From NCBI RefSeq assembly GCF_006540305.1, contig NZ_BJOR01000001.1:2790001-2854000 (forward strand): DNA of 64,000 nucleotides, read 5' to 3'. The DNA comes from Streptomyces sp. 6-11-2. Lineage in GTDB: Bacteria > Actinomycetota > Actinomycetes > Streptomycetales > Streptomycetaceae. The notes under the pieces were generated by a model. It was given only the letters and a program-made list of their open reading frames with translations. It was not told the origin of the DNA and did no database searches. Position 1 is the first letter of the stretch. Every line of letters starts with the position of its first letter. Shown here one piece after another: positions 9,778-63,911 of this stretch. Position numbers and translations under genes: made by a program.

Positions 9778-12090
9778 ATGACCACCGTCCCCTGGCGCGA
9801 CCCCGCCCTGCCCGCCGCCGTCCGCGTCGACGACCTGCTCTCCCGGATGACCATCGAGGAGAAGGTCGCCCAGCTGTACGGCGTGTGGGTGGGCGCCGCG
9901 ACGGACGGCGACGGCGTCGCTCCGCACCAGCAGCAGATGAACACGGACTACGACTGGGACGAGCTGATCACCCTCGGGCTCGGTCAGCTCACCCGCTCCT
10001 TCGGCACCGCCCCCGTGGACCCCGCGCTGGGCGCGCAGGCACTGGCCCGCGCCCAGCGCCGGATCGCCGAGGCCGGCCGCTTCGGCATCCCCGCGGTCGC
10101 GCACGAGGAGTGCCTGGCGGGCTTCACCGCCTGGGGCGCGACCGCCTACCCGGTCCCGCTGGCGTGGGGTGCCACGTTCGACCCGGCGCTGGTGGAGGAG
10201 ATGGCCGGCCGCATCGGGCGGGACATGCGCGCGGTGGGCGTGCACCAGGGGCTCGCGCCCGTCCTGGACGTGGTCCGCGATCCCCGCTGGGGCCGGGTCG
10301 AGGAGACCGCGGGCGAGGACCCGTACCTGGTCGGCACGATCGGCAGCGCGTACGTGCGGGGCCTGGAGTCGGCGGGGATCGTGTCCACGCTGAAGCACTT
10401 CGCCGGGTACGCCTCCTCGGCGGGCGCCCGCAACCTGGCCCCGGTGCGGGCCGGCACCCGGGAGTTCGCCGACGTCACCCTCCCGCCCTTCGAGATGGCG
10501 CTGCGCGAGGGCGGCGCGCGCTCGGTGATGGCCGCGTACACGGAGACGGACGGCGTCCCGGCCTCCGCGGACCCGCAGCTGCTCACCGAACTCCTGCGCG
10601 AGCAGTGGGGTTTCACCGGCACGGTGGTCGCCGACTACTTCGCCGTCGACTTCCTGCGGACCCTGCACCGGGTCGCCGGCACCCCCGCCGAGTCGGCGCA
10701 CCTGGCCCTGGCCGCCGGGATCGACGTCGAACTGCCGACGCTGAAGTGCTACGGCAAGGAACTGGTGGCGGCGGTCCAGGACGGCACGGTTCCGGAGTCG
10801 CTGGTGGACCGCGCGGCCCACCGCGTCCTGCTCCAGAAGTGCGAACTGGGCCTGCTGGACGAGGACTGGGCCGCGGACGCCCCGGCCGAGTCCATCGACC
10901 TGGACTCGGCGGAGAACCGGGCCGTGGCCCGCCGGGTGGCCGAGGAGTCGGTGGTGCTGCTGGCCAACCCGGACGGGGTGCTGCCCCTCTCCCCCGACAC
11001 CCGGATCGCGGTCGTCGGCCCCCGGGCGGCGGACGCCCTGGCGATGCTGGGCTGCTACTCCTTCCCGTCCCACGTGGGCACGCAGCACCCCGAGGTGCCC
11101 ATGGGCATCGAGATCCCCACCCTGCTGGACGCCCTGCGCGGCGAACTGCCCGACGCGAAGGTGACGTTCACGGAGGGCTGCGGCGTCTCCGAGCCGGACA
11201 CCTCGGGCTTCGAGGAGGCGGTCGCCCGGGCGCGGGAGGCGGACGTGTGCGTGGCCGTCCTCGGCGACCGCTCGGGCCTGTTCGGCCGGGGCACGTCGGG
11301 CGAGGGCTGCGACGTGGCGGACCTCGCGCTGCCCGGTGTGCAGGGCGCGCTGCTGGACGCGCTGGTGGAGACGGGCGTCCCCGTCGTCCTCGTCCTGCTC
11401 ACCGGCCGCCCCTACGCGCTCGGCCGCTGGGACGGCCGGCTCGGCGCGGCCGTCCAGGCGTTCTTCCCGGGCGAGGAGGGCGGACCGGCGGTCGCGGGCG
11501 TCCTGTCGGGCCGTGTGAACCCCTCGGGCCGGCTGCCGGTGAGCGTGCCGCGCGGGCCCGGCGGCCAGCCGTGGACGTACCTCCAGCCGCCGCTGGGCCT
11601 GGCGGGCGAGGTGAGCAGCCTGGACCCGACGCCGCTGTACCCGTTCGGACACGGGGTGTCCTACACGACGTTCGAGTGGGCGGACTTCCAGGGCAACGAT
11701 GTCACCGAGATCGGCACGGACGGCTCGCACGACGTCTCGCTGACCGTGCGCAACACCGGTGACCGGACCGGCGCGGAGGTCGTGCAGCTGTACCTGCACG
11801 ACCCGGTGGCGTCGGTGACCCGTCCGGACGTCCGCCTGATCGGCTACCGGCGGCTGGAACTGGACCCCGGCGAGTCCCGCCGGGTGACCTTCCGCTTCCA
11901 CGCGGACCTGTCGGCGTTCACCGACCGCACGGGCCGGCGGGTGGTGGAGCCGGGCGCCCTGGAACTGCGACTGGCCACGTCGGCGTCGGACGTCCGCCAC
12001 ACGGCGCACCTGACCCTGACGGGTCCGGTGCGCGAGGTGGGCGTGGAGCGCCGCCTGCACTGCGAGACGGAAACCTCACCGACGACTTGA
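9778..12090 (+). CDS. Glycoside hydrolase family 3 (beta-glucosidase/xylosidase type)
   Basis: A 770-residue GH3 enzyme with no signal peptide, so it acts in the cytoplasm on the imported sugar. The N-terminal barrel starts VDDLLSRMTIEEKVAQLYG; the likely nucleophile aspartate is in GTVVADYFAVDF near residue 285. A second alpha/beta domain follows (VVGPRAADALAMLG, VPVVLVLLTGRPYALG). A fibronectin III-like C-terminal domain shows FGHGVSYTTFEW and RLELDPGESRRVTFRF. It is 66 bp downstream of the second permease, preceded by an AGGAG site. Sequence alone does not separate beta-glucosidase from beta-xylosidase or arabinosidase. Confidence 0.94.
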   Translation: MTTVPWRDPALPAAVRVDDLLSRMTIEEKVAQLYGVWVGAATDGDGVAPHQQQMNTDYDWDELITLGLGQLTRSFGTAPVDPALGAQALARAQRRIAEAGRFGIPAVAHEECLAGFTAWGATAYPVPLAWGATFDPALVEEMAGRIGRDMRAVGVHQGLAPVLDVVRDPRWGRVEETAGEDPYLVGTIGSAYVRGLESAGIVSTLKHFAGYASSAGARNLAPVRAGTREFADVTLPPFEMALREGGARSVMAAYTETDGVPASADPQLLTELLREQWGFTGTVVADYFAVDFLRTLHRVAGTPAESAHLALAAGIDVELPTLKCYGKELVAAVQDGTVPESLVDRAAHRVLLQKCELGLLDEDWAADAPAESIDLDSAENRAVARRVAEESVVLLANPDGVLPLSPDTRIAVVGPRAADALAMLGCYSFPSHVGTQHPEVPMGIEIPTLLDALRGELPDAKVTFTEGCGVSEPDTSGFEEAVARAREADVCVAVLGDRSGLFGRGTSGEGCDVADLALPGVQGALLDALVETGVPVVLVLLTGRPYALGRWDGRLGAAVQAFFPGEEGGPAVAGVLSGRVNPSGRLPVSVPRGPGGQPWTYLQPPLGLAGEVSSLDPTPLYPFGHGVSYTTFEWADFQGNDVTEIGTDGSHDVSLTVRNTGDRTGAEVVQLYLHDPVASVTRPDVRLIGYRRLELDPGESRRVTFRFHADLSAFTDRTGRRVVEPGALELRLATSASDVRHTAHLTLTGPVREVGVERRLHCETETSPTT

Positions 12091-12195: not shown

Positions 12196-12243
12196 TGCCG
12201 GGGCCTGAGGCGGAGCCCCAGGGGGTGGGCGAAGTCGCGACAA

Positions 12244-12276
12244 AAAACCCCGCCCCCGGTTGCACCGGGGGCGGGG
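12244..12276 (-). terminator. Intrinsic terminator of the tRNA-like gene
   Basis: On the minus strand AACCCCGCCCCCGGT and ACCGGGGGCGGGGTT form a long perfect stem around a 3-nt loop, followed at once by a run of six T (A-run at 12242-12247 on the plus strand). The hairpin begins just a few nucleotides after the encoded CCA of the tRNA-like gene, so it is its dedicated Rho-independent terminator. Confidence 0.88.
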
Positions 12277-12281
12277 TTCCG

Positions 12282-12354
12282 TGGAGCGCCGGGCAGGCCT
12301 TGCACCTGCATCTCCCCGCAGGAAGCGGGACGTCTTTCCTTGGACCACCAACGC
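12282..12354 (-). tRNA. Atypical tRNA-Gly (anticodon TCC)
   Basis: A 73-nt cloverleaf with encoded CCA. The acceptor GCGTTGG (12354-12348) pairs with CCGGCGC (12292-12286) using two G-U pairs. The D-arm is GTC/GAC around an AAGGAAA-containing loop. The anticodon stem TCCCG/CGGGG encloses CTTCCTG, placing TCC at positions 34-36. The T-stem GCAGG/CCTGC is perfect. The discriminator is U73, and G1-C72, C2-G71, C35 and C36 fit bacterial glycine identity. Oddities: the T-loop is TGCAAGG (U55 replaced by G), position 37 is a pyrimidine, and the D-stem has only 3 bp. It has its own TATGAT promoter and a strong terminator, so it is probably expressed. A specialised non-ribosomal role is possible. Confidence 0.72.
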
Positions 12355-12392
12355 ACTGCTCGCGGGCCTCAGTTGGCCGCTTGCGTGTGATG

Positions 12393-12423
12393 ATCATAGC
12401 CCACCGGAAGGGCCGGGGGCCAA
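12393..12423 (-). promoter_or_regulatory. Promoter of the tRNA-like gene
   Basis: On the minus strand a perfect TATGAT -10 box (12393-12398) lies 19 nt after TTGGCC (12418-12423). The 5' leader to the mature tRNA start would be about 30 nt. The -35 box abuts the stop codon of the upstream 88-residue gene, so the tRNA is an independent unit. Confidence 0.6.
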
Positions 12424-12690
12424 TCAGCCGTCCCGGCCCTCACCCACCGACTCGAACCGCCACCGATGCACGGCCCGCGTGACCAACTCACCCTCCGGCT
12501 CGGGAAGTTCCGGCAGCTCGGCGGTGAACTCCGCGTCCCACCAGGTGATGACCAGCACCCGGTCCTGCGGAGCACGGAAGGTCTCCCGCCGCAGGGGCGT
12601 CGGCGCGAGCTCCTGCCGCCGGGCCCAGGCGAGCAGTTCCTCCCCCCGCCCCGCGACCGCCCGCGCCTCCCACATCAGCGCCACCGTCAC
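12424..12690 (-). CDS. Conserved hypothetical small protein coupled to tsaD
   Basis: An 88-residue soluble protein, [20 protein letters not shown] at the start, with a WWDAEF motif near residue 50 and an acidic middle ([13 protein letters not shown]). The pattern of a short strand, helix and strand resembles half of a ferredoxin-like or ABM-type fold, but this is only a guess. The GTG start at 12690 overlaps the tsaD stop (GTGA), so it is the last gene of the tsaB-rimI-tsaD run and is translated with it. Function unknown. Confidence 0.75.
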
Positions 12691-13793
12691 GGGTACAGGT
12701 TCTCCTTGCTGACCTCGTGCACATGGTCATGGGTGTGCCCCGTGCCCGGCACATGCGGATCCGTCACCGGCAGGGAGGAGTCCGCCGACAGGTCCCAGTC
12801 GGAGGCCGCCCGGCCCCGGCTGACCATCTCCGCGCCCAGCGCCGCCACCATCGCGCCGTTGTCCGTGCACAGCTTGGGCCGGGGCACGCGCAGCCGGATC
12901 CCGGCCGCCTCGCACCGCTCCCGCGCCAGGGCCCGCAGCCGCGAGTTCGCGGCCACGCCGCCGCCGATCATCAGGTGGTCGACGCCCGCGTCCTTGCAGG
13001 CCCGTACGGCCTTGCGGGTCAGCACGTCCACCACCGCCTCCTGGAAGGACGCGGCCACGTCACGCACCGGAACCTCCTCCCCGGCCGCCCGCTTGGCCTC
13101 GATCCAGCGGGCCACGGCCGTCTTCAGACCGGAGAAGGAGAAGTCGTAGGCGGGGTCGCGCGGACCCGTCAGCCCGCGCGGGAAGGCGATCGCCGCCGGG
13201 TCGCCCTCCGTCGCGTACCGGTCGATGACCGGCCCACCCGGGAAGCCCAGGTCCAGTACGCGCGCAATCTTGTCGAACGCCTCGCCCGCCGCGTCGTCGA
13301 TCGTCGCGCCCATGGGCCGTACGTCCGCGGTGATGTCCGTGGACAGCAGGAGCGAGGAGTGCCCGCCGGACACCAGCAGCGCCATCGTCGGCTCCGGCAG
13401 CGGGCCGTGCTCCAGCTGGTCCACACAGATGTGCGAGGCGAGGTGGTTGACGCCGTACAGCGGCTTGCCCAGGGCGTAGGCGTACGCCTTGGCCGCCGAG
13501 ACGCCGACGAGCAGAGCGCCGGCCAGACCGGGTCCCGCGGTGACCGCGATGCCGTCCAGGTCCCTGGCGCTGACCCCCGCCTCCTTGAGCGCGCGCTCGA
13601 TGGTCGGCACCATCGCCTCCAGGTGGGCCCGGGAGGCCACCTCCGGGACGACCCCGCCGAACCGCGCGTGCTCGTCGACGCTGGAGGCGACCGCGTCGGC
13701 CAGCAGGGTGGTGCCGCGGACGATGCCGACGCCGGTCTCGTCGCAGGAGGTCTCGATGCCGAGGACGAGCGGTTCGTCCCTCAAGTCAGTCAT
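12687..13793 (-). CDS. tsaD: tRNA N6-adenosine threonylcarbamoyltransferase TsaD
   Basis: A 368-residue ASKHA-fold enzyme that moves threonylcarbamoyl from TC-AMP to A37 of ANN-decoding tRNAs (t6A), working with TsaB and TsaE. Signatures: [16 protein letters not shown] at the start, the metal site [12 protein letters not shown] (two His), [10 protein letters not shown] and [22 protein letters not shown], and the C-terminal [11 protein letters not shown]. The ATG at 13793 overlaps the end of rimI (ATGACTGA), so the genes are coupled. Length is normal for actinobacteria. Confidence 0.97.
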
Positions 13794-14316
13794 GGATCTC
13801 GGTTCCTTGTACACCGTTGACGGAGGTTGCCGGGTCGGACAGGCGCATCACCACGGCGTCCACGTTGCCGGGCTGGTAGTAGCCGCGCCGGAAGCCGATG
13901 GGCTCGAAGCCGAAGCGCTCGTAGAGCTTCTGCGCGCGGACGTTGTCCACGCGGCATTCGAGCATCACCTCGGCGCACTCGAAGGCGGTCGCGGCCCGCA
14001 GCAGCTCGGTCAGCAGCCGGGAGCCCAGCCCGGTGCTCCAGTGATCGCGGGCGACGGCGATGGTCTGCACGTCGCCCTGGCCGCCGGAGGCGACCAGTCC
14101 GGCGTACCCGACGATCCGGCCGCCGTCCTCGGCCACCACGTAGCGCCGGGTCGCCTCCGGGCCCCTGGAGTGCGCCAGCTCGGACCAGAACATGCCCCGG
14201 GACCAGGCGTCCTCCGGGAACAGGTCCTTCTCCAGTTCCAGCACCGGGTCGATGTCCCACCAGCGCATCTCGCGCAGTGCGCACCGGGCGGACCCGGTCG
14301 TCGTCTGTCCCGTCAC
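13786..14316 (-). CDS. rimI: Ribosomal protein bS18/uS-type alanine N-acetyltransferase RimI
   Basis: A 176-residue GNAT acetyltransferase. It opens with [26 protein letters not shown] and has the acetyl-CoA motif [19 protein letters not shown] and the C-terminal [22 protein letters not shown]. It is expected to acetylate protein N-terminal alanines such as that of S18. It sits between tsaB and tsaD, a conserved linkage. The GTG at 14316 overlaps the tsaB stop by 4 bp (GTGA). Confidence 0.94.
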
Positions 14317-14966
14317 TTCGGGGTGACCACCTTGTAGTTCTTGGGCACCTGGGCGTCCGGCCGGCGCAGGTACAGCGGCCGGGGCGCGGGCAGCTCCTCA
14401 CCGGCGGCCAGCCTCTCGGCGGCCAGCGAGGCGAGGGCGGCGGCCGACACGTGCTCGGGCTCGTGCGCCTGCGGGAAGGTCTCGGGGTACAGCAGCGCGC
14501 CCGCGCCGACCGCGGGCAGGCCCCTGACCCGGTCGGCGATGTCGGCCGGCCGGTCCACGGCCGGGTCGGTGACCCGGGTGCGCGAGTCGGCGTACCGGGC
14601 CCAGTAGACCTCCTTGCGGCGGGCGTCGGTCGCCACGACGAAGGGGCCCGGGAGGTCGGCCGCGTAGGCGAGGCCGTCGAGCGTGCACACGCCGTACACG
14701 GGCACGCCGAGGGCGAGCCCGAGGGTGTCGGCGGTCATCAGGCCGACGCGCAGGCCGGTGTACGGGCCGGGCCCGACGCCGACGACGACGCCCGTGACGG
14801 CGTCCAGCTTGAGCCCGGCCTCGGTGAGCACCCGGTCGACGGCCGGCAGCAGGAGCTCTCCGTGCCGGCGCGCGTCCACCTGGCTGGAGGAGGCGATGAC
14901 GTCCGTTCCGTCGTGCAGGGCGACGGTGACGGCGGGGGTGGCGGTATCCAGAGCGAGCAAGAGCAC
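14313..14966 (-). CDS. tsaB: t6A biosynthesis protein TsaB
   Basis: A 217-residue partner of TsaD needed to assemble the threonylcarbamoyl-transfer complex. It begins LLLALDTATPAVTVALHDG and carries VGVGPGPYTGLRVGLMTADTLGLAL, the family signature. TsaB has the same fold as TsaD but lacks its metal site and acts as a scaffold. It is the first gene of the tsaB-rimI-tsaD run. The start is a GTG at 14966. Confidence 0.95.
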   Translation of the reverse strand: MLLLALDTATPAVTVALHDGTDVIASSSQVDARRHGELLLPAVDRVLTEAGLKLDAVTGVVVGVGPGPYTGLRVGLMTADTLGLALGVPVYGVCTLDGLAYAADLPGPFVVATDARRKEVYWARYADSRTRVTDPAVDRPADIADRVRGLPAVGAGALLYPETFPQAHEPEHVSAAALASLAAERLAAGEELPAPRPLYLRRPDAQVPKNYKVVTPK

Positions 14967-15079
14967 GCAAACAGCCTACGGCTCCCGCGCCTCCGGCACG
15001 GCCGCCCCGGTCGGGGGGATTCCGGCTGCTACGGTCGCCGCGAGGCAGCTCGTGACGACCGAGGCGGAGGTGGACGACC

Positions 15080-15637
15080 GTGGCACGGAGCAGTTCGGGG
15101 TTCGTGGCCGGGCTCACCGCCGCGGCCGTCCTCACGGTCGGCTTCCTCGCCCACCAGGCGCAGGCGACCGTTCCGCGGAGCCTGAGCGGCCGGCCCGGCC
15201 CGACGGCGACGCCCGCGGCGAGCGTCTCCAAGGCACCCCGGGACAAACGGCGCCCGACCGCGCTGCCCGGCGGCTCCGGGACCGGCGAGCGGGTCGTGTA
15301 CTCGCTGGACGACGACCGGGTGTGGCTGGTCGGCCCGGACGGGTCGGTCCAGAACACCTTCCGGGTCGGCCCGGGCAACGTCGACCCGGCGCCGGGCACC
15401 TACGCCGTCGTGTCCCGTTCGAAGGCGATCACCGGGACCGACGGTGTCCCCGTCGAGCACGTCGTGCGTTTCACCAGCACGGACGGGGTGGTCATCGGTT
15501 TCAGCGCGGCGTTGGACGGCTCCTGGCCGACGTCCGACCCGGCGATCAGGACCGGCGGCATCCGTGAGTCCCGGGCGGACGGCGAGGCGATGTGGATGTT
15601 CGCGACGATCGGCCAGAAGGTCGTCGTCATCCGCTAG
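15080..15637 (+). CDS. Secreted L,D-transpeptidase-like protein without catalytic Cys
   Basis: A 185-residue protein with an N-terminal signal or anchor (GFVAGLTAAAVLTVGFLAHQ), a Pro/Ala/Thr-rich linker and a C-terminal domain. The domain's order, a strand ending HVVRF, then RTGGIRESRADGEAMW and a final TIGQKVVVI, resembles the YkuD L,D-transpeptidase core, where the matching site reads SHGCIR. Here the cysteine is a glycine, so it should not be a classical transpeptidase. It may be a structural or binding relative. It stands alone. Its stop TAG is formed at the left end of the MITE-like repeat. Confidence 0.8.
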   Translation: MARSSSGFVAGLTAAAVLTVGFLAHQAQATVPRSLSGRPGPTATPAASVSKAPRDKRRPTALPGGSGTGERVVYSLDDDRVWLVGPDGSVQNTFRVGPGNVDPAPGTYAVVSRSKAITGTDGVPVEHVVRFTSTDGVVIGFSAALDGSWPTSDPAIRTGGIRESRADGEAMWMFATIGQKVVVIR

Positions 15638-15860
15638 TGCTGTGGCCGGGAAGGTTTGCCGGGAAGCTCGCGGCGTCCGGTGCCGGGGGCACCTCCCACG
15701 CCCTTCAGGCAGTGGGGGAGCCTCGCAAGGCGGAGCATTGCCCGCGTACCGGATGTACTCGGGTGATGCGACAACGCGGCGTGGGGGTACCCCCGGCCGA
15801 AGGCTGGGGGAGTGCCGTGCCGGGCGCCGCGAGCCGGTGAACCCTTCCGGTCACAGCACT
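15636..15860. mobile_element. MITE-like element with 20-50 bp inverted ends
   Basis: The left end AGTGCTGTGGCCGGGAAGG and the right end (read from 15860 inward) AGTGCTGTGACCGGAAGGG are inverted repeats, and similarity continues about 50 bp inward (CCGG, GCTCGCGGCG, CCGG blocks). The 225-bp interior has no credible gene, only nested hairpins (TGGGGGTACCCCC near 15783). This is typical of a small non-autonomous transposon. It fills most of the gap between the secreted protein and the small minus-strand gene; 15861-15941 shows nothing else. Confidence 0.7.
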
Positions 15861-15941
15861 GGAGCCGCCGCCCAGCGGAACGCACCCTCGCGAGGTCGTG
15901 TCCTTCACCGGGGCACGTCGGCCGAAAGTCATCCGATGGGG

Positions 15942-16139
15942 CTACGCCGCTTCACGGCTTTCCTCCACCGTGCGGGGGTCCGCCGGCTCCGGGGCGCGCG
16001 GCGGCCGGGAGACCGCGTCGGCGGCGGCGCAGGCGGCCAGCAGATCGCGCATGGACACACCGCCCACCGCGTACGGCCGCGGCTTCGGATTCGTCCGGTG
16101 CCGCCGCTGCTGCTGCTCGTTGCTCTCCATGGCCGACAT
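15942..16139 (-). CDS. Small hypothetical protein
   Basis: A 65-residue hydrophilic protein beginning MSAMESNEQQQRRHRTNPKP with a central SMRDLLAACAAADAVSRPP helix and an acidic tail. A very good AGGAGG site lies 5 nt before the ATG at 16139, and codon use looks native, so it is probably translated. No known domain is recognised and no partner is obvious beside the tsaE-alr cluster. Confidence 0.65.
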   Translation of the reverse strand: MSAMESNEQQQRRHRTNPKPRPYAVGGVSMRDLLAACAAADAVSRPPRAPEPADPRTVEESREAA

Positions 16140-16269
16140 GGACGCCTCCTGGGGGCCGGGGGCGGACGTGGTGAGGCACGCCTAACCACGGGCTGACCAC
16201 CATGTGACCATGCCCGGAGCACCCGGCGCAAGGATTTGCCGACGCCCTGTCGGAAAGTCCGTGCGGCCC

Positions 16270-16794
16270 TCAGGCGGTCAGAATGCCCAGGTCGACGGTG
16301 GCCCAGCGGTCCCCGATCCCGGTCACCGTCACGTGCCGCACCTCGTCCGTGGTGTCTCCGACGGCCCGGTGGATCACGACCTGGAGCCGCTCGTCGGTCA
16401 GCTCCTCGACCTTGCCCTCGCCCCACTCCACGACGACCACCGAGTCCGGCAGCGACACGTCGAGGTCGAGGTCCTCCATCTCGTCGAGCCCGCCGGACAG
16501 GCGGTAGGCGTCGACGTGGACGAGTGGCGGGCCGTCGCCCAGGGCCGGGTGCACACGGGCGATCACGAAGGTCGGGGAGGTGACGGCGCCGCGCACGTCG
16601 AGCCCCTCGCCGAGACCGCGGGTCAGCGTGGTCTTGCCCGCGCCGAGCTCCCCGCTGAGCATCACGAGGTCGCCCGCGCGCAGCAGCTTGGCCAGACGGC
16701 GGCCCAGCTCGCGCATCTGCTCGGGGGCGTTGACGGTGATCTCGACGGACCCGGGGTCAGGGGTGTGCCGTGCTGCTGGTGCTTCCATAGCCAT
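16270..16794 (-). CDS. tsaE: t6A biosynthesis ATPase TsaE
   Basis: A 174-residue P-loop ATPase that regulates the TsaB-TsaD complex in t6A formation. Walker A GELGAGKTTLTRGLG is near residue 50, followed by SPTFVIARVHP and HVDAYRLSG. It overlaps the 3' end of the upstream hydrolase by 38 bp, so the two are co-transcribed with alr. A second ATG at 16788 would also serve. Length is slightly above the family mean because of an N-terminal extension. Confidence 0.94.
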   Translation of the reverse strand: MAMEAPAARHTPDPGSVEITVNAPEQMRELGRRLAKLLRAGDLVMLSGELGAGKTTLTRGLGEGLDVRGAVTSPTFVIARVHPALGDGPPLVHVDAYRLSGGLDEMEDLDLDVSLPDSVVVVEWGEGKVEELTDERLQVVIHRAVGDTTDEVRHVTVTGIGDRWATVDLGILTA

Positions 16795-18010
16795 CAACGG
16801 TAGTGCCTGCCGGGACCGCGCCCGCGCGGGCGAGCAGGTCGGCGAGGCGGTCCGTGACGGCCTCCGGATGCTCCAGGATCACCAGGTGCCCGGCGTCCGG
16901 GACCAGCACCAGCTCCGCGTCGGGGAGCAGGTCGGCGATGGCCTCGCTGTGCTCGCTGGGCGTGACGAGGTCCTGCACCCCGGCGAGGACCAGCACCGGT
17001 ATGTCCGCGAAGAGGGCGAGCGCCTCGGTCTTGTCGTGGTCGGTGAAGGCCGGGTAGAACTCGGCGACCACGTCGATCGGCGTGCTCTCGATCATGCGCT
17101 CGGCGAACCGGGCGACCGCCGGGTCGATGTCCCGGCCGGCGAACGAGTACCGCTTGATGACGCCGGCGAAAAGGTCCGTGGTGGCCCGCCGCCCCTTCTC
17201 CACCAGCTCGGCGCGCTGCCCGAGCGCCTTGAGCACTCCGGGGAGCACCCGGCGCACCGCGTTGACACCGGCCACCGGCAGTCCGAAGTTGACCTCGCCG
17301 AGCCGCCCGGAGGAGGTGCCGACGAAGGCGGTGGCGACGACCCGCTCGCGGATCAGCTCGGGATACTGGTCGGCCAGCGCCATCATCGTCATGCCGCCCA
17401 TGGAGTGCCCGACGAGCACGAGCGGCCCCTCGGGCGCGGCGGCGTCGATGACGGCCTTCAGATCGCGGCCGAGCTGGTCGATGGTCAGTTCCGCGCCGTC
17501 GCGGGTCTGGGTCAGACCCCGCCCGGACCGGCCGTGGCTGCGCTGGTCCCAGTGCACGGTGCGTATGACACCGCGCAGGGCGGCGCGCTGGAAGTGCCAG
17601 GAGTCCTGGCTGAGGCAGTAGCCGTGGCTGAAGACGACGGTGACGGGGGCGGGGGCCTTGCGGCCGAAGAGCCGCCGGCGGCGCGGACCGAGGTTCGCGG
17701 TGGAGTCGGGGTCGATGTCGTCGACCTCGTAGTAGAGCTCGGTGCCGTCGTCGGCCAGGGCCTTGCCCGGGGTGCCGCGCAGGGCTCCGTAGGGGCCCGC
17801 CGAGTCCAGGGCGAGCCGGGCCTTGCGGCGTATGCCGCGGCCGACCGTCATCCGCTCGATGGCGACCCCGGCGGCGGCTCCCGCCGCCACCACGCCTATC
17901 GCGGCGCCGGCGATACCCGTCGCCCGCCGCCAGCCGCCGACCGCCTCCGCGGCAGAGGCGACGGCCGCCGTGGCGGCCTTCGCGACGGCCCCCGCACTGC
18001 TCTCGCTCAC
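16757..18010 (-). CDS. Alpha/beta hydrolase
   Basis: A 417-residue protein with an Ala-rich, hydrophobic N-terminal region (about residues 5-50, GIAGAAIGVVAAGAAAGVAI) that may anchor it to the membrane, then an alpha/beta-hydrolase fold. The nucleophile elbow is LVGHSMGGMTMM, the acid lies in LVLAGVQDLVTP and the histidine in PDAGHLVILEHP. The oxyanion region is FSHGYCLSQDSW. The substrate is unknown; lipid esters are plausible. The GTG at 18010 was chosen because GAGGAG lies just upstream. It is in an operon with alr and tsaE. Confidence 0.9.
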   Translation of the reverse strand: MSESSAGAVAKAATAAVASAAEAVGGWRRATGIAGAAIGVVAAGAAAGVAIERMTVGRGIRRKARLALDSAGPYGALRGTPGKALADDGTELYYEVDDIDPDSTANLGPRRRRLFGRKAPAPVTVVFSHGYCLSQDSWHFQRAALRGVIRTVHWDQRSHGRSGRGLTQTRDGAELTIDQLGRDLKAVIDAAAPEGPLVLVGHSMGGMTMMALADQYPELIRERVVATAFVGTSSGRLGEVNFGLPVAGVNAVRRVLPGVLKALGQRAELVEKGRRATTDLFAGVIKRYSFAGRDIDPAVARFAERMIESTPIDVVAEFYPAFTDHDKTEALALFADIPVLVLAGVQDLVTPSEHSEAIADLLPDAELVLVPDAGHLVILEHPEAVTDRLADLLARAGAVPAGTTVDGYGSTSSTAHP

Positions 18011-34398: not shown

Positions 34399-34476
34399 GG
34401 TTCTTCTCCTAGTTGTCTGCCCCGGCCGTATCAGGTACCGGGGTCAGTATCCGAGCGAGCGGTCGCCCGTCGGAGA

Positions 34477-62717: not shown

Positions 62718-63911
<1,194 letters not shown>

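Follow-up and report, generated by a model that had tools for sequence, protein, structure and literature searches.

A dispersed family of atypical tRNA-Gly(UCC) genes in Streptomyces with conserved glycylation marks and a decayed anticodon loop

Introduction

Why should a bacterium that already has an ordinary tRNA-Gly(UCC) gene carry another, in which several features of a decoding tRNA are altered? The question is raised by a gene in a 64,000-nucleotide stretch of the genome of Streptomyces sp. 6-11-2 (contig NZ_BJOR01000001.1, positions 2,790,001 to 2,854,000), hereafter termed the window. A translating elongator tRNA has a 7-nt anticodon loop, U33, a purine at position 37 and U55. The identity set recognized by glycyl-tRNA synthetase (GlyRS) comprises U73, G1-C72, C2-G71, C35 and C36, and in Streptomyces the glycine of the cell-wall bridge is added by FemX. 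A first-pass annotation, made from the sequence alone, had proposed that the gene is independently transcribed and may serve outside translation, in wall synthesis or with another tRNA-dependent ligase. No earlier account of this tRNA was found in the open-access literature, as judged by titles and the openings of abstracts.

An atypical tRNA-Gly(UCC) gene

The gene was called as tRNA-Gly(TCC) by ARAGORN, and its 73-nt stretch, when searched alone, scored 37.3 bits with the Rfam tRNA model (cut-off 29), a check set beforehand, which places it in the tRNA family (Table 1). The fast Rfam scan of the whole window missed it, and by ordinary scoring it is weak, since only two of the 72 above-cut-off tRNA-model matches in its own genome score lower. 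The fold of the RNA is a cloverleaf in which the acceptor stem has 7 bp, the D-stem 3 bp, and the anticodon and T stems 5 bp each; taken by themselves, the 73 nt have an unremarkable folding energy (z = -1.06, equalled by 29 of 200 shuffles). The complete GlyRS identity set is present, together with U33, a 7-nt anticodon loop and an encoded CCA, while position 37 is U and position 55 is G. The cloverleaf, anticodon, encoded CCA and GlyRS identity described in the first-pass annotation were thus borne out, as were the three oddities that it had listed (U55 replaced by G, a pyrimidine at position 37 and the short D-stem).

The genome consists of three contigs (8.7 Mb). The ordinary tRNA-Gly(UCC) gene for which the annotation had recommended a search was found on the contig of the window (C1:4724104-4724174; locus L005, 71.6 bits), so that the odd gene is not the sole Gly-TCC tRNA. 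Genes for Gly-CCC and Gly-GCC tRNAs occur elsewhere in the genome, as does a second copy of the odd gene (C1:7210201-7210271).

Table 1. Features at and around the atypical tRNA gene (positions are those of the window)
Feature	Position	Strand	Evidence and remarks
Atypical tRNA-Gly(UCC), 73 nt including encoded CCA	12282..12354	-	ARAGORN; RF00005, 37.3 bits; family model R2, 98.7 bits
Anticodon loop CUUCCUG	12319..12325	-	U37; C32-G38 pairable; fast-changing part of the family (sequence; loop table, 260 copies)
T-loop UGCAAGG, G55 instead of U	12298..12304	-	Sequence; loop table, 260 copies
D-loop CAAGGAAA, G18 G19 retained	12335..12342	-	Sequence; 260 copies (largely pattern-fixed)
-10-like box TATGAT	12393..12398	-	Sequence; overlaps GATC (12392-12395) that recurs in other copies
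Intrinsic terminator, long GC hairpin followed by six T	12242..12280	-	Fold; hairpin 3' of most copies
tsaD (t6A synthesis), presumed	12687..13814	-	Nearby upstream gene, same strand; translation
GH3-type glycosidase-like gene, presumed	9778..12090	+	Convergent neighbour, context; translation

Transcription signals

The promoter that had been assigned to the gene stood only in part. The TATGAT box is present, but a simple consensus scan reported neither a promoter nor a terminator at this locus; the best -35-like hexamer by our reading lies about 19 nt from the box and is not a good one, and no -35 shared among related copies was found in the leaders of 260 copies. The strong terminator, the other signal claimed, is evident from the fold despite the silent scan, and a hairpin of at least nine pairs follows 218 of the 260 family copies (versus 10 of 260 shuffled sequences). 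When leader, tRNA and terminator were folded together, z was -3.76.

The leaders have another recurrent element. GATC, often as GATC(T/A)TG, lies right behind the -10 region and is found across unrelated sites, although the -35 is not; by a raw count that carries no chance level, 218 of 260 copies have GATC within -55 to -20 of the tRNA. The element may be the mark of a common regulator or of a start-site requirement.

Distribution of the family

A search of Streptomyces with the 73-base sequence, as the first-pass annotation had suggested, matched 218 of 392 genomes at E≤1e-6 and left 174 without a match, a threshold that just misses weaker members (e.g., G031 at 1.0e-6). The order- and class-level searches had stricter filters, which lose weak matches: in the order, a covariance model of the family (R2) matched 111 of 147 genomes at E≤1e-5, and at the level of the class 20 of 394 genomes, in 1 of 137 genera, matched at E≤1e-11. 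In 35 of the 111 genomes the best match reached only 1e-8 to 1e-6, which is the level of a different tRNA (the core odd tRNA-Gly, described below); after their removal, 76 genomes carry the dispersed family, all from a single one of the five genera. When named genomes were scanned with a pattern, the matches listed (80 of at least 120) comprised 79 from Streptomyces and one from Actinacidiphila. Plasmids carry the family at 136 places on 70 records (68 from Streptomyces and two from Streptantibioticus), and the three family-bearing plasmids that were inspected are all linear. A phage origin was rejected, as none of 50,697 phage records matched, nor did IMG/VR when searched with the exact pattern.

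Some genomes contain several copies (five in G119, four in G197). By flank similarity, the 249 copies with flanks fell into 150 site groups, of which the largest, with 28 copies, is the tsaD site of the window. What unrelated sites have in common lies for the most part within the tRNA: similarity starts at a median of -1 and ends at a median of 72, with -54 as the 5th percentile of starts and 115 as the 95th percentile of ends. No clean empty site was seen at the flanks of the second copy of the window genome (61 genomes) or of two plasmid copies. The patchy presence of the family says that its function is dispensable. One locus (L379, 796-865, + strand) holds a degenerate copy with changed acceptor and discriminator, which is likely a pseudogene.

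Conserved and decayed features

The search pattern by which the 260 distinct copies were collected prescribes G49, A51, most of the T-loop and parts of the D-loop; the T-loop motif, present in 260 of 260, is therefore not an independent count. G18 G19, pattern-fixed in the 260 copies, are also kept in the window copy and in all 23 aligned rows. In contrast, neither U73 nor the CC of the anticodon loop is fixed by the pattern, and both occur in all 260 copies, the CC being alignable to C35 C36 throughout. In the acceptor stem, C2-G71 and G3-C70 are invariant and G1-C72 occurs in 259 copies, so that the GlyRS identity marks listed above are present in 259 to 260 of the 260, as expected of a tRNA-Gly. 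The 49-65 pair is G-C in every copy (G49 pattern-fixed, C65 not) and the 51-63 pair is A-U in 257 (A51 pattern-fixed, U63 not). CCA is encoded in 106 copies.

The acceptor wobble pair U4-G69 is kept in 254 of the 260 copies, while the next pairs vary, and is possibly a recognition mark of a glycine consumer.

The anticodon loop differs from one copy to another. Loops of seven nucleotides (CTTCCTG in 195 copies, CTTCCCG in 32 and CTTCCGG in one) have a pyrimidine at position 37 in 227 of 228 cases (227 of 260 overall). In the remaining 32 copies, which include types B and C, the loop is only six nucleotides long and occurs in six kinds (CAGCCG, 9; CTCCAA, 8; CAACCG, 7; CATCCG, 5; CTGCCG, 2; ATCCAA, 1), and in 21 of these, by the simplest alignment, A replaces U33. 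Against a loss of decoding, 228 of the 260 copies still have a 7-nt loop, U33 and UCC. A kissing contact between the D-loop (AGGAA) and the anticodon loop (UUCCU) was considered and rejected, since types B and C change the latter while the D-loop is constant. ARAGORN detected no tRNA at any of the 21 type B and C loci, which means that such tRNAs are easily overlooked; it also missed one of three type A copies (L131). An Rfam search carries no weight for types B and C, since in the same run it also missed the type A copy in L052.

The conservation of the fold, another check proposed at the outset, was analyzed in 33 distinct rows and 20 pairs (660 cells), with an alignment fitted to the structure. 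Compared with 500 shuffles, which ignore kinship, the proportion of paired cells (99.4%) and the covariation score exceeded every shuffle, cells with double changes numbered 62 versus a shuffled mean of 17.8 (none of 500 as high), and changes on both sides were seen in 7 of the 20 pairs (1 of 500 as high); on one of the five measures, further pair types, the family did not rise above the shuffles (238 of 500 as high). Sliding the pair partners lowered every measure. The helices thus covary, and the uncompensated structural decay expected of a pseudogene is not observed. Since the identity marks are fixed, the helices covary and the loop has decayed, selection appears to hold the fold and the glycylation marks and not decoding, and we conclude from these comparisons that glycylation is what the family is probably selected for.

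Comparison with known systems

The closest parallel considered is the non-proteinogenic tRNA-Gly of Staphylococcus aureus. According to a review (PMC4052509), the pairs G49-U65 and G51-C63, which are strong for EF-Tu, give way to A49-U65 and A51-U63 in these tRNAs, UU or CU stands in place of G18 G19, EF-Tu binding is weak, and the isoacceptors feed pentaglycine synthesis. By our parsing, the ordinary tRNA-Gly(UCC) of the window genome has G49-U65 and G51-C63. The Streptomyces family shares with the staphylococcal tRNAs the occurrence of extra tRNA-Gly genes beside ordinary ones, A51-U63 in place of G51-C63 and an altered elbow. It differs in keeping G18 G19 and a strong G49-C65, in the G55 T-loop, in the decayed and sometimes shortened anticodon loop, and in its scattered and plasmid-borne copies. 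Judged on sequence features, the likeness is a partial parallel and not membership.

Two further systems were compared. In Streptomyces natural-product pathways, Orf11 of BD-12 and DhpK use Gly-tRNA outside the ribosome (PMC12945691, in whose main text the phrase "tRNA gene" does not occur); the genus is the same and the non-ribosomal use would be alike, whereas neither FemAB nor Lant_dehydr_C genes associate with the present family. The tRNA-Other of Bacillus cereus, a pseudo-tRNA reported to be non-functional in translation (PMC3399842), resembles the family as a tRNA-like gene with a probable place outside translation, a likeness of description and not of compared sequence or identity.

Search for a glycine consumer

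Gene content was compared in 40 genomes with the family (39 from the R2 search of the order and G204 from a separate search) and 40 without it (all from the R2 search); the sets are not matched for phylogeny, and genomes of the first set tend to be larger. FemAB-family genes were present in 40 of 40 genomes of both sets, with more than two model pieces in 25 versus 22, so that gene presence gives no Fem association of the staphylococcal kind. GlyRS was likewise universal (40 of 40 in each set, as two model pieces that we read as one gene). No association was found for two or more EF-Tu matches (37 with versus 35 without), Lant_dehydr_C (26 versus 30) or CDPS (12 versus 14).

Neighbouring ORFs were clustered around 39 copies in 40 regions (487 ORFs), and then around 70 copies in 60 regions. 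The commonest cluster (12 of 40 regions, 15 of 60) lies 2.3 to 7.1 kb away, and its four scanned members are ABC-transporter ATPases; the next (7 of 60) includes two scanned members, both short-chain dehydrogenases. Both families are very common and were therefore not taken as linked to the tRNA, and the other recurrent clusters examined came from regions that share one site. Among 116 of the 133 immediate neighbours (the 17 omitted were mostly distant), no Pfam family occurred in more than four. A cis role, or a function linked to a particular gene, was rejected on the basis that no specific neighbour recurs in the 40 and 60 regions.

A second atypical tRNA-Gly(UCC)

The different tRNA that accounts for the weak R2 matches, termed here the core odd tRNA-Gly(UCC), lies outside the window at C1:3668637-3668708 (- strand; 1655-1726, - strand, of locus L010), just upstream of a tRNA-Gly(GCC) gene. 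At 44 bits it was the best R2 match among the ordinary-set loci searched, followed by a tRNA-Arg at 36.2. Its T-loop, UGCAAUU, contains G55, its T-stem is bulged, the 51-63 pair is A-U, and the D-loop lacks G18.

Ten further places of weak R2 matches, among the matches listed, were read. Nine carry the core odd tRNA, in two sequence types that differ by a compensated change at pair 27-43, and the tenth is the degenerate copy in L379. A tRNA-Gly(GCC) gene adjoins it in all nine places, and ARAGORN reported the odd one in three. Five of the nine genomes (G385, G298, G460, G480 and G455; five of the 35 weak-match genomes were read) lack the dispersed family. Plasmid records contained no match. 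With the dispersed family the core odd tRNA shares G55 in a UGCAA T-loop, A51-U63, C32-G38 and the glycine marks; unlike the family, it occupies a single site, has a purine at position 37 and a 7-nt loop, has lost G18 and has a bulged T-stem. The core odd tRNA would be nearer in design to the staphylococcal wall tRNAs than the dispersed family is.

A probable role in non-ribosomal glycine transfer

The retention of the marks for charging, together with the loss of those for codon reading, probably means a supply of glycine outside protein synthesis. Service outside translation, the central suggestion of the first-pass annotation, is well supported at the level of sequence: the genome has an ordinary tRNA-Gly(UCC) as well, and homologues lose U33, the purine at 37 and the 7-nt loop, yet keep the glycylation marks. 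The explanation that we consider probable is a dispersed, often multi-copy family of stand-alone units, each provided with a -10 region and a terminator of its own, of which the window gene is one member. The RNA folds as a tRNA and would be charged by GlyRS, codon reading presumably being no longer needed given the decay of the anticodon loop; the weak EF-Tu pair A51-U63 and the altered elbow would keep the Gly-tRNA off EF-Tu and the ribosome, and the glycine would then pass, in trans, to a glycyl transferase that works outside the ribosome. A wider picture, in which decoding-dead, GlyRS-chargeable cassettes for non-ribosomal glycine transfer are spread genus-wide over chromosomes and plasmids while the core odd tRNA perhaps serves the wall, is offered more tentatively, at slightly less than even odds.

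That the dispersed tRNA is the specific Gly-tRNA donor to FemX seems unlikely. All 80 genomes compared have FemAB-family genes, and A51-U63 parallels the staphylococcal wall tRNAs (PMC4052509), but these genes are equally present where the family is absent, and 174 Streptomyces genomes gave no match to it at E≤1e-6. The FemAB genes do not track the tRNA and no neighbour recurs beyond very common families, which leaves the proposed wall role possible but unsupported. The core odd tRNA, found with and without the family, would fit that role better and is our preferred candidate for it; it may be the source from which FemX of Streptomyces gets its glycine.

Rather doubtful, too, is a role as RNA and not as glycine donor, in which it would bind GlyRS, a tRNA-modifying toxin or a regulator as a decoy or sensor, and its several copies would provide dosage. 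The strongly conserved RNA body, the multiple dispersed copies in many genomes, carriage on plasmids and the lack of a detected consumer are consistent with it; it is not obvious, however, why binding alone should require the marks in discriminator and acceptor that nearly every copy keeps.

Still less probably, the tRNA is a cassette that is selfish or hitch-hikes, does nothing for its host and has spread by some unknown route. The 150 sites, the similarity mainly within the tRNA (95% of pairs within -54/+115) and the many plasmid places are what such a cassette would leave, but no specific neighbour, such as a transposase, recurs among the Pfam families shown, 28 copies have the tsaD site in common, and the covariation and the fixed identity marks suggest that the RNA itself is under selection. 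That the gene is simply a divergent tRNA-Gly(UCC) that translates in the ordinary way is very improbable, for although the window copy, like most copies, has UCC in a 7-nt loop with U33, the family shows U37, 6-nt loops in types B and C, A for U33 in 21 copies and no ARAGORN call at any type B or C locus, and the genome already has the ordinary gene.

If the preferred reading of a glycine donor acting in trans is right, the family points to a glycine-consuming reaction not yet known in the main antibiotic-producing genus. Its natural variants, in which one tRNA keeps the synthetase marks and loses the decoding marks, would in any case provide a clean test separating charging from translation.

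Genomic setting of the window copy

The tRNA is preceded on its own strand (12687-16797, -) by genes that we take, from their translations, to be tsaD, a RimI-like acetyltransferase gene, and tsaB-like and tsaE-like genes; the Pfam TsaD family was matched in three neighbours at the tsaD site of other copies. The convergent neighbour is presumed, from its translation, to be of GH3 type. Farther away, the window contains an L17 ribosomal-protein leader (RF03132, 70.7 bits) at 34417-34473 (-) and, near its right end, an EF-Tu gene at 62721-63908 (-), corresponding to C1:2852721-2853908.
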